Positions 2,795 to 8,077 of a stretch of DNA of 64,000 bases are shown in pieces; position 1 is the stretch's first letter, and every line of letters begins with the position of its first letter. A model generated the notes under the pieces. The model was not told where the DNA came from and made no database searches. It saw only the letters and a program-made list of their open reading frames with translations. Position numbers and translations under genes: made by a program. This DNA is from Oscillospiraceae bacterium (GTDB taxonomy: Bacteria; Bacillota; Clostridia; Oscillospirales; UBA929), in NCBI GenBank assembly GCA_009782215.1, contig WRKO01000012.1, positions 1-64,000 on the forward strand. Reading direction: 5' to 3'.

Positions 2795-5093
2795 TTTCAA
2801 AAGCCTCCTCGAAGCCGCGCTCAGGGGACAGGAAAACCATGTCTGCGACCTGTACGTTACCGTCAGTCAAACCGCGATGAAGAAGATTGAAGCTGTTTGG
2901 GGCATATCTTCTGCGAAAAAGGTATGCTATTTTTCCGCGGAGTTTTTAGTTGGCCGCGTGGTTTACAGCAATTTGCAGGCTTTGGGCGTACTGGAGGATA
3001 TGCGCGAGGTATTCCGAAAATACGGTCTTGACGCCAATCTGTTTGAGGATGTAGAGGATGCCGCTCTGGGCAACGGCGGTCTGGGGCGTTTAGCGGCGTG
3101 TTTCCTCGATTCCGCCGCGACAATGGGGCTTCGCATGGACGGTTATGGAATCCGCTACCGTTACGGACTGTTCAAGCAACATTTTCACGAAGGGTTTCAA
3201 AGGGAAACCGCCGACGACTGGACGCGTTTCGGCGACCCGTGGAGCATCCGCAGGGAGAAAGAACGGATACAGATAAACTTTGGCGACCAGTCGGTGTGGG
3301 CAATTCCGTATGACATGCCGGTAATCGGGTATGGCGGCAAAACCGTCAACACCCTGCGGCTTTGGCAGTCTGAACCCATGAACGGCTTTAATTTCTCTGA
3401 GTTCGACGAGCATACATACAACGACTCTTATGCAGTACGAAACGCCGCCGAAGCGATTTCCGGCGTCCTGTACCCAAATGACGATACCGACGAAGGTAAA
3501 CGCTTGCGCCTCAAGCAGCAGTATTTTTTTGCAAGCGCGTCCCTGCAAAGTATGCTGCGTGAATACAGGGCAGTGAACGGAAGCGACTACTCCAAGTTTT
3601 CGGAGCGTTACGCCATTCAGCTTAACGACACTCACCCCACGGTCGCCATCCCGGAGTTTCTGCGCCTGTTGATGGAGGACGGCGTATCTTTTGAGGACGC
3701 GTTTTCCATAGCCCTGCATACCTTTGCGTATACCAACCACACCGTCATGGCGGAGGCTCTGGAAAAATGGGATGTCAGTTTGTTCTGTTTTGTTGCGCCG
3801 GCGGTATACCCTTATGTCGTGATGATACAGAACAAGTTGACGCAGGATTTACACAATCGCGGCATCAACGGCGCAGACCAAATGCCTTACTACATAGTAG
3901 ACCCCGACCAACGCATTCACATGACCCGTATGGCTGTTTACGCGACACATTCCACAAACGGCGTCGCGGCATTGCATACCGAAATCCTGAAACACGATGT
4001 CCTGAAGGAGTGGCACGCCCTCTACCCGGAGCGGTTCAGCAATAAAACAAACGGGATTACGCAGCGCCGCTGGCTCTCCCTGTGCAATCCCAAGCTGGCG
4101 GGATTTATCACCGAACGTATTGGAGACGGCTGGATTACCGACCTTGACCAACTTGAACGCCTGCGGGATTATGAAAGAGACCATGACGCTCTGTGGGAGT
4201 TGGCCGATATAAAGCGGCATAACAAGCTCTGTCTGGCGGAGTATGTGTGTTCGCGTGAGCATGGGGTAAAACTCAATCCCGATTCCATCTTCGACATTCA
4301 AGTGAAACGGTTGCATGAATACAAACGGCAGTTACTCAACGCGTTCTCCATTCTGGACATTTATTTTCAACTCAAGGACGGCTGCTTATCGGACTTCTAT
4401 CCTATGACCTTTCTGTTTGGCGCGAAAGCGGCTCCCGGATACAGGCGGGCAAAGGCGATTATCAAGGTTATCAATGAGGTTGCGGAGTTGGTCAACCGCG
4501 ATTCCGCCGTCATGGATACGCTGAAGGTTGTATTTGTGCAGAATTATAACGTGAGCTACGCGGAAAAGCTCATTCCGGCGGCCGACATCTCCGAGCAGAT
4601 TTCCCCGGCAGGCACAGAAGCTAGCGGAACCGGCAACATGAAGTTTATGCTTAACGGCGCGGTTACGCTGGGTACTTACGACGGCGCAAATGTGGAAATT
4701 GCCCAGCAGGCAGGACATGAAAGCAATTATATCTTCGGCTCTCGTGTGGAGCAAATCCGCGAAATTAAGGACAGCTACCATCCTCGCGGATTATACGAGG
4801 CTAGTCCCGGAATCCGCAGAGTACTTGATACGCTGATAGACGGAACCCTCAACGATAACGGAACGGGGTTGTTCAGGGAGCTTTTTGATTCCCTCTTGCA
4901 CGGGCATAACCCGGATCAATACTATCTGCTGTTGGATTTTGAATCGTACATGGCAACAAAGCTACAAGCCAACCGAGACTACCGCGACAGGTTGGAATTC
5001 AGCCGTAAATGCTTGCATAACACATCCAGCGCCGGTATTTTTTCGAGCGACAGGACGATTCGGGAATATGCTGCAGATATTTGGCATTTGTGA
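2787..5093 (+). CDS. glgP: glycogen/alpha-glucan phosphorylase
   Basis: GT35 glycogen phosphorylase, 768 residues, releasing glucose-1-phosphate from alpha-1,4-glucans with pyridoxal phosphate. The PLP-binding Lys is about K619 in GTGNMKFMLNG, followed by GTYDGANVEI. EDAALGNGGLGRLAACFLDS near the N-terminus is the glucan and effector-site signature. I chose the GTG at 2787: AAAGGCGG lies 8-15 bases upstream and the following residues VSNFKSLLEAAL start like other family members. A longer frame from an ATG at 2712 would overlap the esterase by 83 bases. At 768 residues it is slightly short for the family, mainly at the N-terminus. No other glycogen gene is adjacent, which is unusual. Confidence 0.95.
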   Translation: MSNFKSLLEAALRGQENHVCDLYVTVSQTAMKKIEAVWGISSAKKVCYFSAEFLVGRVVYSNLQALGVLEDMREVFRKYGLDANLFEDVEDAALGNGGLGRLAACFLDSAATMGLRMDGYGIRYRYGLFKQHFHEGFQRETADDWTRFGDPWSIRREKERIQINFGDQSVWAIPYDMPVIGYGGKTVNTLRLWQSEPMNGFNFSEFDEHTYNDSYAVRNAAEAISGVLYPNDDTDEGKRLRLKQQYFFASASLQSMLREYRAVNGSDYSKFSERYAIQLNDTHPTVAIPEFLRLLMEDGVSFEDAFSIALHTFAYTNHTVMAEALEKWDVSLFCFVAPAVYPYVVMIQNKLTQDLHNRGINGADQMPYYIVDPDQRIHMTRMAVYATHSTNGVAALHTEILKHDVLKEWHALYPERFSNKTNGITQRRWLSLCNPKLAGFITERIGDGWITDLDQLERLRDYERDHDALWELADIKRHNKLCLAEYVCSREHGVKLNPDSIFDIQVKRLHEYKRQLLNAFSILDIYFQLKDGCLSDFYPMTFLFGAKAAPGYRRAKAIIKVINEVAELVNRDSAVMDTLKVVFVQNYNVSYAEKLIPAADISEQISPAGTEASGTGNMKFMLNGAVTLGTYDGANVEIAQQAGHESNYIFGSRVEQIREIKDSYHPRGLYEASPGIRRVLDTLIDGTLNDNGTGLFRELFDSLLHGHNPDQYYLLLDFESYMATKLQANRDYRDRLEFSRKCLHNTSSAGIFSSDRTIREYAADIWHL

Positions 5094-5130
5094 GTGACGG
5101 CTTGGAATTAACTCATATCTGCAAACTGAA

Positions 5131-5160
5131 GAGGGGGTACGCAAGTATGAGTACCCCCTC
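5131..5160 (+). terminator. hairpin after glgP, possible terminator
   Basis: A perfect 10-bp stem, GAGGGGGTAC pairing with GTACCCCCTC, encloses a 10-base loop 38 bases after the glgP stop. No T-run follows, so intrinsic termination is plausible but not certain. Confidence 0.5.
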
Positions 5161-5206
5161 CAATTGTAATCGATAAAAAAATATCCGGGAAAATTTCTAA
5201 AACCCC

Positions 5207-5235
5207 TTGACATTGCTAAAACCCTCCGCTATAAT
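5207..5235 (+). promoter_or_regulatory. consensus sigma-A promoter of the folded leader/ncRNA
   Basis: TTGACA at 5207-5212 and TATAAT at 5230-5235 are separated by 17 bases, matching the housekeeping consensus at every position. Transcription should start near 5242. The next credible coding start is at 5915, giving a leader or free RNA of more than 500 nt. Confidence 0.85.
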
Positions 5236-5241
5236 GGCATT

Positions 5242-5760
5242 ATTAGTAACAGCGATTTCTCATTTGAGAATCACAATATCAGAGTTTACACAGTGTCCAG
5301 AGGCTTGCTATGCCTTTGGGCGCTTTTTTTGCGCGCAAGCTACAACCACATCAGTCTCCTAAGCCGCCAGACTGAGGCGGCAGCGTACCCGGTCTTGCCA
5401 GACCGAGACGGGGAGAAAAAACTTAAAGAAAGTGAGGCATCCATCATGCAAAAGAACATCCGGCAAAACCATCCGTGCCGCGAGGGGCGCGGGTTATGGG
5501 TACAGTTTAGCCTCACCTCGAAGAAAGGCTTGTGGCGGAGCTTTTCAAACCGGCGCGAAGGTATATACCTTCGTTGGGCAGAGCCGGTTTATGTATCTCA
5601 AACCATTGGTCTCTCCACTGCCCGGGGAAGCCGAACAGCACCCGCAATCGTAGCCGGATATTCCGGTCGGTGCTTACCGTCGAGGGGTTTCCCCTCAGTC
5701 TTTTCAAAGTCAGTACGGAGTCTTACTGAACACAAAAAAACTAAATAACCCGGCTACTTA
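5242..5760 (+). ncRNA. candidate long structured RNA (unassigned)
   Basis: This fills most of the gene-free stretch 5098-5914. It begins just after a perfect promoter and is dense in stems: 5297-5304/5312-5319 (8 bp), 5320-5323/5331-5334, 5363-5368/5376-5381, 5391-5395/5400-5404, 5547-5554/5583-5590 (AAACCGGC with GCCGGTTT) enclosing the 18-base palindrome 5556-5573, 5654-5658/5662-5666, 5682-5687/5691-5696 (GAGGGG/CCCCTC) and 5711-5715/5724-5728. An open frame of 100 codons (5446-5748, ATG after GTGAGG) runs through it, but its Arg/Lys-rich product matches nothing I know and the stems would constrain it. It could be a large ornate RNA of the kind found in mobile elements, or a long regulatory leader for the recombinase. 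From 5761 to 5914 I see only the recombinase ribosome site. Confidence 0.5.
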
Positions 5761-5914
5761 ATTATGGAGACAGAGGTAAAAAAATTTCGCCGAAGTCCAC
5801 AATATCAACGGGTTTAGGCGTTTGTTAGTCGGAAATCAGCCGGAAACAGTCGGTTGTGTCAGTGGGATAGCTGCGCCTTTTGCGGATTGCGGGCATATAG
5901 AAAAGGAGATAAAT

Positions 5915-6526
5915 ATGTCAACAAACCACTATATAAACCTGCTCGCGCAAGCCGAAAAGCTGTACCGTCACAACCGGCAAGGGAGCTACAAAACCAAAGA
6001 GCGATATTTCGAGGCGTACAAGCGCAAGTTCGGCGGCATTGACAGAAGTTGGAGTCATGCTGAATTTAGCCGCATGATTGGTGAGTGCTGGAAAACAGGG
6101 CGGGGTGACTACGAAGCCTGTATCGTAATCGCCTATTACGCAGGGCTGAGATTACATGAGGTTATGCGAATCGAGTTTGAAAAGTTCCTCAGACTGACTT
6201 CGCCCGGACATAAACTGTTCGTTCCTCAAGGCAAGCAAACCCATATTGCCAAGACTGAGTTGCAAAACTTCATCAACAAGCACCGGAAGCTCGTACAAGA
6301 CCCCGGCTCCACAAAACCGATGACATATCACGGGCTGCGCCATACCTGCGCGGCAAACTGGTATCAGAAGATGATTGCCGAGGGCAAGACTGAGTATGAG
6401 GCGAGAAAACAGGTTTCCCAATGGCTTGGGCATGAGCGGGATGATGTGACCAGAATCTATCTTGCGAGCATCGAGAGTGGCAATCCGTCAGACTCAGATG
6501 GCAAAGGCGGTGACGGCAATGTTTGA
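5915..6526 (+). CDS. shortened tyrosine recombinase
   Basis: 203 residues with the full tyrosine-recombinase catalytic set: R79 (YAGLRLHEV), H139-G-L-R142, H173 (WLGHE) and Tyr182 (TRIYLASI). The ATG at 5915 follows AAAAGGAGAT, an excellent ribosome site. Family members are normally 280-400 residues. Here the N-terminal core-binding domain shrinks to about 40 residues, YFEAYKR running straight into KFGGIDRSW. The stretch between the Arg box and LFVPQG, which normally holds the catalytic Lys strand, is also very short. I read this as an enzyme with two in-frame internal deletions, probably inactive or only DNA-binding. Its last 8 bases overlap the next start. Confidence 0.75.
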   Translation: MSTNHYINLLAQAEKLYRHNRQGSYKTKERYFEAYKRKFGGIDRSWSHAEFSRMIGECWKTGRGDYEACIVIAYYAGLRLHEVMRIEFEKFLRLTSPGHKLFVPQGKQTHIAKTELQNFINKHRKLVQDPGSTKPMTYHGLRHTCAANWYQKMIAEGKTEYEARKQVSQWLGHERDDVTRIYLASIESGNPSDSDGKGGDGNV

Positions 6527-6758
6527 AAGCTACCCCGACGTCGTCACGGTCAAGGAGCTTTGCCAAATGCTCCAGATCGGAAAAAACACAGCGTATGAGC
6601 TGTTAAAAAACCGCAGTCTTAACTCAATCCGCATCGGGCGCAAATTTTTGATTCCCAAGCAGTCAGTCATAGATTTTTTAGGTGTCATGTGCTATAATGA
6701 GAACCGGATAATCAATGGCGGGCAAAACAATCAGTCATCGAAAGGAGCGCTATTATGA
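6519..6758 (+). CDS. excisionase-type helix-turn-helix DNA-binding protein
   Basis: 79 residues in the MerR-like/excisionase fold: VTVKELCQMLQIGKNTAYELLKN (about 9-31) is the helix-turn-helix and SIRIGRKFLIPKQSVIDFL the wing. Such proteins direct integrase towards excision or act as small regulators. The ATG at 6519 follows AAAGGCGG and overlaps the recombinase stop. The stop overlaps the integrase start as ATGA, giving the usual xis-int coupling of Tn916-like and phage modules. The Ser/Asn-rich tail after residue 55 is outside the domain. Confidence 0.82.
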   Translation: MFESYPDVVTVKELCQMLQIGKNTAYELLKNRSLNSIRIGRKFLIPKQSVIDFLGVMCYNENRIINGGQNNQSSKGALL

Positions 6759-7885
6759 CTGGAAGCCTGCAAATAAAAAGCGGCGTTTACTACGCCGTAC
6801 TCAATTTCAAAGACGAAACCGGCAAGCGGCGCCCTAAATGGGTCTGTACCAATCTCAAGGTCAAGGATAACAAGCGGAAAGCGGAGGCGTTTCTGAACAA
6901 ACTCCTGACGGAGTATGCGAACATGAGGACAACCTATAATAAGGATGTGTTGTTTTCGGAGTATATGCTGCTCTGGCTGGAGACAGCAGCTGGGTCGATT
7001 GAGCGAAACACATACGAATCATACCGAGCCATTATTAAACGCTACATCGAGCCGCACTTCTCCGCAAGAAAAATCAAGCTGCAAAACCTTGAACCGCAGC
7101 ACATCCAAACATTTTACAACGGTCAGGTAAAGAAGGGGTTAAGCCCGAACACCGTCATCAAGGTACACGCCAACATCCGAAAGGCATTACAGCACGCCGT
7201 CAAGATGAACATGATTCCCTACAACCCCGCCGACAGGGTGACGCTGCCGAAAAAGAAGGCGTATCATGCCAACTTCTATACAGCCGAGCAGGTGAATGAG
7301 CTTCTTACCATTTTCAAGAATGAGCCAATCTATCCTGCCGTTATGCTGGCAGCCTTTTACGGACTCAGACGGAGCGAGGTTCTTGGATTAAAGTGGTCGC
7401 ACATCGACTTCAAAGCCGATACGATTACGGTACAGGACACTGTTGTTCAGTATGACACCGTTATCGACAAGCCACGGATAAAGACAAAAGCCAGCCATCG
7501 GACGCTGCCGCTGATTCCGGCGATGAGGGGTTACCTCATACGCCTCAAAAGCCGACAGGCGGAAAATCAGCTTTTTCTTGGCCCTGTGTACATCCATAAC
7601 GACTATGTATGCAAACGCGATAACGGTGTGCCGTTCTCCCCGGACTACATAACCGGGCGGTTCCTAGGGGTTCTCCGAAAGAATCAGCTTCCACACATCC
7701 GGTTTCATGGCCTCAGACACAGCGCGGCCAGTATGCTCCTTGCCAACGGGTTTTCATTGAAAGAAATCCAAGAATGGCTCGGACACGGCACGCTGGCGAC
7801 GACGGCAAATATCTACGCCCATCTCCGATTTCAAGCCAAGCAGGATATGGCTGATTCACTGGGTAAAACCCTCGTCATCGGATAG
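6755..7885 (+). CDS. int: tyrosine-type site-specific integrase
   Basis: A full-length 376-residue integrase of the phage/ICE tyrosine recombinase family. An N-terminal AP2-like arm-binding region (about 1-55) is followed by a SAM-like core-binding domain (about 65-165) and the catalytic domain: R205 (YGLRRSEV), Lys243/245 in the TKASHRT strand, H318-G-L-R321, H344 (WLGHG) and the Tyr354 nucleophile (NIYAHL). It ends 108 bases from the 3' end of tRNA-Tyr, the usual place for an integrase whose attachment site lies in a tRNA gene. The start overlaps the excisionase stop and is served by AAAGGAG. Confidence 0.93.
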   Translation: MTGSLQIKSGVYYAVLNFKDETGKRRPKWVCTNLKVKDNKRKAEAFLNKLLTEYANMRTTYNKDVLFSEYMLLWLETAAGSIERNTYESYRAIIKRYIEPHFSARKIKLQNLEPQHIQTFYNGQVKKGLSPNTVIKVHANIRKALQHAVKMNMIPYNPADRVTLPKKKAYHANFYTAEQVNELLTIFKNEPIYPAVMLAAFYGLRRSEVLGLKWSHIDFKADTITVQDTVVQYDTVIDKPRIKTKASHRTLPLIPAMRGYLIRLKSRQAENQLFLGPVYIHNDYVCKRDNGVPFSPDYITGRFLGVLRKNQLPHIRFHGLRHSAASMLLANGFSLKEIQEWLGHGTLATTANIYAHLRFQAKQDMADSLGKTLVIG

Positions 7886-7952
7886 AGCGTTAGAAAACCG
7901 TTAGAAATCGCCTAGTAATTGGAAACCGCTCCTCTCCCGACGAAAAAACCCA

Positions 7953-7984
7953 AAACGCCCGCAACCTTACAGTCACAGGCGTTT
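7953..7984. terminator. hairpin between integrase and tRNA-Tyr
   Basis: AAACGCC (7953-7959) pairs with GGCGTTT (7978-7984) around an 18-base loop. T-runs are weak on either side, though A-rich sequence precedes the hairpin on the plus strand. It could end both the integrase and tRNA transcripts, or be part of the attachment region. Confidence 0.4.
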
Positions 7985-7992
7985 CGCGCTTA

Positions 7993-8077
7993 TGGTGGGG
8001 GAGGACGGATTCGAACCATCGAAGTCGTTGACAACAGATTTACAGTCTGCCCCCTTTGGCCGCTCGGGAACTCCCCC
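7993..8077 (-). tRNA. tRNA-Tyr (GTA)
   Basis: An 85-nt type II tRNA with long variable arm. The acceptor stem GGGGGAG/CTCCCCC, T-arm GGTTCGAATCC and encoded CCA (bases 7993-7995) are all present. The anticodon GTA corresponds to TAC at 8041-8043 on the plus strand, inside loop CTGTAAA. The 3' end faces the integrase and is the likely attachment site. Confidence 0.95.

Follow-up and report, generated by a model that had tools for sequence, protein, structure and literature searches.

To our knowledge, little is known about how tRNA-integrated mobile elements in gut Clostridia control the expression of their recombinases. The 64,000-nucleotide stretch of contig WRKO01000012.1 from an Oscillospiraceae bacterium analysed here (the window) raises this question at one locus, where a consensus sigma-A promoter is followed by a long folded region before the next credible gene, next to a recombinase gene and a tRNA-borne integrase gene within a mobile element. 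The earlier note saw in this region a long, apparently non-coding transcript recalling ROOL, GOLLD and similar large ornate RNAs. What, then, does the region encode, and what would it do for the genes behind it?

Promoter, candidate attenuator and coding potential of the leader

The promoter matched the consensus at all 12 positions, versus 9/12 (chance level) for the other promoter-like sites within 4000–8000, and the next credible start was the recombinase ATG at 5915, ~680 nt 3' of it and behind AAGGAG, in agreement with the earlier note (Table 1). Promoters scoring 10–12/12 were also present in the relatives L004, L030, L040, L054, and L064, at 599–822 nt upstream of the RNA described below, and such a promoter with a distal leader part is common among the relatives.

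Table 1. Features of the leader and the adjoining genes (positions in the window).
Feature	Position	Strand	Evidence
Sigma-A promoter TTGACA-17-TATAAT	5207–5235	+	12/12 match; like promoters in relatives
Intrinsic-terminator-like hairpin with T7, candidate attenuator	5292–5331	+	13 pairs; z −3.9 for 5242–5331
Promoter-proximal motif copy (weak), inside the attenuator hairpin	5294–5315	+	PWM z 3.0
Nested hairpin P0	5548–5589	+	Arms co-vary in L004, L048, L054, L064; outside the Rfam model
Divergent xerDC RNA (RF03062), tail UACUGAAC at 5724	5608–5731	+	42 bits; E 3.5e-5, 2.3e-5 over the genome
GAGACAG block	5767–5773	+	Nearly invariant in ~45 loci; outside the Rfam model
GGAAATCAGCCGGAAAC block (GGAAA..GCCGGAAAC, 5831)	5831–5847	+	Conserved; outside the Rfam model
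RBS-proximal motif TGTCAGTGGGATAGCTGCGCCT (family consensus TGCCAATGGGCGAACTGCGCCC)	5857–5878	+	Comparison of relatives
Ribosome-binding site (RBS) AAGGAG	5903–5908	+	Sequence
XerDC-type tyrosine recombinase, 203 aa, two in-frame deletions	5915–6526	+	PF00589, E 1.7e-7; alignment
Excisionase-like HTH_17 protein; frame overlaps both neighbours (recombinase end, integrase start)	6519–6758	+	Domain search
Tyrosine integrase beside tRNA-Tyr	6755–7885	+	PF00589, PF14659
tRNA-Tyr	7993–8077	−	tRNA match

Analysis of the leader (5242–5914) bore out that it is strongly folded, with z = −3.6 against dinucleotide shuffles, versus −0.3 and −0.6 for two coding stretches of the window used as control. The excess was confined to the 5' and middle parts (5242–5735); 5736–5914 alone showed none (z = +0.45), and no consensus structure of the 3' part was found across the window's length class or in the R2-R3 block. 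A small GGGYG/YGCCC hairpin was present in the leader 3' part of other length classes. The nested hairpin previously pointed out at 5547–5590 proved real: in P0, AACCGGC (5548–5554) pairs with GCCGGTT (5583–5589) and encloses GAAGGTATATACCTTC (5557–5572), and this hairpin, upstream of the Rfam model, is kept in the closest relatives.

Directly 3' of the promoter, the hairpin with its T-run resembles an intrinsic terminator, so that a full-length leader RNA would need read-through. The earlier reading of a folded, non-coding RNA stands; this hairpin, which it missed, qualifies the long transcript proposed there. The attenuator sequence showed no conservation, and many relatives have no simple terminator at that spot. 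In locus L003, outside the recombinase-leader context, a similar hairpin with T-run forms an attenuator-like unit (1455–1560) akin to window 5273–5328, lying 3' of a promoter-like sequence in unrelated surroundings, a likeness that suggests a mobile promoter–attenuator cassette. In addition, tandem repeats of GGTAAGCAGTTAA were found right after the leader promoter in L060 (900–420 nt before the RNA tail) and L062 (643–310 nt before it), whereas L030 and L054 showed instead two GGTTTGA motifs around a hairpin and then a terminator; the 5' sensor part of the leader seems to be exchangeable between loci.

The only sizeable frame of the leader (5446–5748, 100 codons) has no Pfam domain, as expected from the earlier reading, and makes up the 3' portion of an open frame that begins further upstream, at GTG 5293. 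Compared with G004, the genome of a sister species, its changes by codon position were 38:38:48, versus 73:44:153 for the integrase when these two genomes are compared. Summed over 27 pairs of related leaders, the counts were 406:426:461, with many 1-nt indels, versus 835:552:1949 for the recombinase across related pairs; some sequences recur in several pairs, which are thus not fully independent, although the contrast is still clear. The check for selection on this frame proposed in the earlier note, carried out in substance by these counts, gave no sign of purifying selection. A protein gene at 5446–5748 or from 5293 was rejected, as it has no domain, flat codon-position changes, and indels that are not multiples of three: the leader encodes no protein.

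Match to xerDC RNA and covariation of its helices

At default (gathering) thresholds, Rfam returned only two tRNAs for the window stretch. A permissive scan of 871 nt revealed a match to RF03062 (xerDC) spanning model positions 1–126 end to end, which was also the sole RF03062 match in a genome-wide search. Matches to this family were found in 6/394 genomes of the order and in 0/14 control genomes. The gathering cut-off of RF03062 is 72.5 bits, about 30 bits above the score of the window RNA, which does not formally belong to the family in Rfam terms and is, for that reason, called here a divergent homologue. Within its own subfamily, intermediate scores bridged the gap (L054 72.5, L004 64.1, and L048 55.1 bits), and 10 other Oscillospiraceae loci (L023, L028, L029, L030, L037, L038, L040, L042, L043, and L068) scored 77–100 bits. 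The RNA occupies the 5' region of the gene for a XerDC-type recombinase, though an internally deleted one, and its tail is near-identical to that of RF03062 (UACUGACC). The window RNA differs from the Rfam family, besides its score, by the distinct tail and P7 loop of its subfamily, by conserved parts flanking the 126-nt model on both sides, and by an attenuator at the leader start.

The xerDC helices map in the window to 5637–5642/5669–5674, 5654–5658/5662–5666, 5677–5680/5715–5718, 5682–5685/5693–5696, and 5698–5702/5707–5711. Six helices (P0, P2, P4, P5, P6, and P7) were listed in eight subfamily members, with the arms picked by eye at near-constant offsets from the RNA tail. Standard pairs made up 222 of the 227 cells, and double changes occurred at 20 pair positions compared with 6.1 ± 1.9 in 2000 shuffles, none of which was as high, a contrast that is somewhat generous because of the choice of arms by eye. 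The Rfam model tests this structure independently; compensatory changes were found in P2, P4, P5, P6, and P7, while P1 was seen by eye only. Helix P7, for example, appears as GCCUU/AAGGC, GGUUU/AAACC, GGCUC/GAGCC, and AACUU/AAGUU. In the window, five of the six counted helices are fully paired, P7 contains one U-U mismatch, and P1 also has a mismatch. The compensatory changes whose absence would have spoken against a structured RNA are thus present, and homology of the window RNA to the xerDC class is supported.

The kinship with ROOL or GOLLD did not hold. Neither matched at gathering thresholds or in the permissive scan, and both were rejected, as was any other Rfam family for the leader. 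GOLLD and ROOL are, like the RNA described here, large folded RNAs on mobile elements, but the window RNA sits in an mRNA-leader position and has a known core of only 126 nt. A free-standing large RNA is likewise unsupported, as RF03062 is typed Cis-reg and lies directly upstream of the recombinase in most relatives. BLAST searches of plasmid and phage collections with the leader gave no match; among viral contigs, a single short DNA pattern matched 7 times, 0/7 with an Rfam match at gathering, and no recombinase relatives were found there. As a separate observation, L040 carries two tandem xerDC RNAs ~1 kb apart (1146–1288 and 2171–2312), both above the Rfam cut-off, with a gap too small for a full recombinase. 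In the literature searched, no paper on the xerDC motif was found, and in the candidate-RNA paper of 2010 (PMC2864571) XerDC comes up only in connection with the STAXI motif.

Conserved blocks and a repeated motif beyond the Rfam model

A protein search with the downstream recombinase yielded 65 loci, most of which showed xerDC RNA immediately ahead of the XerDC-type recombinase gene, in the same orientation. The common order was xerDC core, tail UACURAMC, GAGACAG block, GGAAAnnnnGCCGGAAAC block, TGYCAAxGGGnnAACUGCGCCC block, ribosome site, and recombinase; the Rfam model takes in only the core and tail of this conserved leader. The spacing between GAGACAG and GGAAA fell into four classes ~11 nt apart (63–66, 75–77, 87–89, and 97–99 nt) in ~45 loci (L004, L017–L073), and the sequence between these blocks is poorly conserved despite the narrow classes; phylogeny may account for part of this pattern. 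Pairing of GAGACAG with an upstream or downstream CUGUCUC was considered and rejected, since no consistent partner was found in the clostridial loci.

Some loci depart from this organization. Upstream of the related recombinases of Bacilli and Vallitalea (plasmids L082, L083, L084, and L086, and L071) there are long near-perfect hairpins, those of L082, L086, and L071 including CTGTCTC/GAGACAG, and in the plasmid loci L082–L086, 1.0–1.5 kb without a listed gene precede the recombinase. The G004 leader has an insert of 150 nt (L004, ~1040–1197) with ATACTAATCCTCGATTGA as its inverted ends, like a miniature mobile element. In Sporobacter termitidis (L045, 3935–4144) the xerDC core abuts the recombinase N-terminus and the middle of the leader is absent; the frame is broken, making it a decayed copy.

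In addition to these blocks, a motif next to the ribosome site recurs near the promoter. Its 15-nt core is palindromic (GGGCRNASTNYGCCC), with C or G at the centre, and good copies were found near the promoter in 13 of 30 representative loci (0.35 expected), compared with none in 30 recombinase stretches of 550 nt. The promoter-proximal copy of the window was equalled by 1/60 shuffles and falls short of the core score of 10.8 attained in 19/30 loci. The 5' copies are flanked by complementary stems of differing sequence (mean 4.18 vs 3.36 ± 0.20 bp), whereas the 3' copies have no such stems; in L022, L030, and the window, the 5' copy lies within a hairpin followed by a T-run. GCUAU (5307–5311) of the window is the exact reverse complement of AUAGC (5867–5871), and L049 has the two exchanged. 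A loop–loop contact between the leader ends is possible, as a lead and not a result, given that several loci (L022 and L069 among them) misfit and that the motif is partly self-complementary.

The recombination operon and competing readings of its leader

Two segments of full-length relatives are missing from the recombinase of the window, the core-binding domain and a stretch that includes the VKGKGG motif, and in G004 only ~46 of its codons are left. The two genomes are 76% identical in the RNA block and 71% in xis-int; their nucleotide homology is limited to 5624–6003 and 6537–7923, the cargo differs, and the element targets tRNA-Arg in G004 versus tRNA-Tyr in the window, from which the module would appear to have been exchanged between tRNA sites. 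In other loci, the integrase behind the recombinase is of the tyrosine or of the serine type. GC falls from ~60% to 51% on the left side of tRNA-Tyr, and the low-GC stretch, inside which the contig begins, is taken to be the integrated element. Since RNA and integrase are kept while the recombinase is deleted here and nearly gone in G004, the leader probably works for the entire operon rather than just for the recombinase.

Taken together, the sequence comparisons make it reasonably probable that 5242–5914 is the 5' leader of a recombinase–xis–integrase operon at the tRNA end of the element, carrying a divergent xerDC cis-regulatory RNA. Anatomy and conservation are what the data show; attenuation plus translational control is the most likely role. 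Transcription would start near 5242 and often stop at the attenuator, and read-through would give the structured leader, in which the xerDC domain and the RBS-proximal motif could gate translation of the coupled genes, so that recombinase and integrase would be kept off until a signal arrives.

A different reading takes the conserved blocks as DNA, that is, as sites that the recombinase would bind or resolve in front of its own gene, perhaps folded as single strands. In Tn4430, the IRS resolution site precedes the tyrosine recombinase gene tnpI, and the window shares with it conserved non-coding DNA directly upstream of such a gene. The ~11-nt steps of the GAGACAG–GGAAA spacing, the palindromic motif core, and the palindromes before the recombinase in Bacilli plasmid and chromosomal relatives, several with CTGTCTC/GAGACAG, would all suit DNA sites. 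Nevertheless, we hold this reading to be unlikely: short-looped helices with internal junctions vary compensatorily on one strand, which sets the window apart from Tn4430, the matching Rfam family is curated as cis-regulatory, the conserved block stops beside the ribosome-binding site, no core site with flanking repeats was identified in the window, and G004 keeps the RNA though the recombinase that would use the site is gone. Similarly improbable is a compact RNA of ~600 nt, its ends joined by the promoter-/RBS-proximal loop–loop contact, acting as a structural or ribonucleoprotein part of the recombination machinery with cis-regulation as a secondary role. The motif copies at both leader ends, with the GCUAU/AUAGC complementarity and its exchange in L049, the conserved blocks along the leader, and the gene-free stretches before the recombinase of Bacilli plasmids point in that direction, but complementarity between copies of a palindromic motif is partly built in, and the misfitting loci count against it.

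Finally, the locus could be a decayed remnant, with an inactive recombinase, a drifting leader, and only residual folding. The two in-frame recombinase deletions, the low xerDC score, and the P7 mismatch agree with decay, but we give this very little credence in view of the perfect promoter, the almost intact pairing of the counted helices, an RNA block whose identity with G004 is comparable to that of the intact xis-int, and two downstream genes that are both open. A more far-reaching reading, in which xerDC is the best-conserved piece of a 500–800 nt promoter-to-RBS RNA, its end motifs possibly touching, acting as a recombination switch across clostridial elements and perhaps Bacilli plasmids, is rather doubtful.

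In conclusion, the core of the leader is of an already known kind, xerDC; as far as the Rfam model and the literature searched show, the following appear to be new: a subfamily that diverges from it, a conserved leader that extends past the model, a motif that is repeated, and an RNA that is kept where the recombinase has been lost. The candidate motif xerDC thereby gains an extended architecture and, from loci with a decayed recombinase, a first hint that it acts on the recombination operon as a whole. Placed in front of the recombinase, excisionase, and integrase genes, a conserved leader RNA would be a concrete candidate for the switch, one that probably controls when the mobile element makes its DNA-cutting enzymes.
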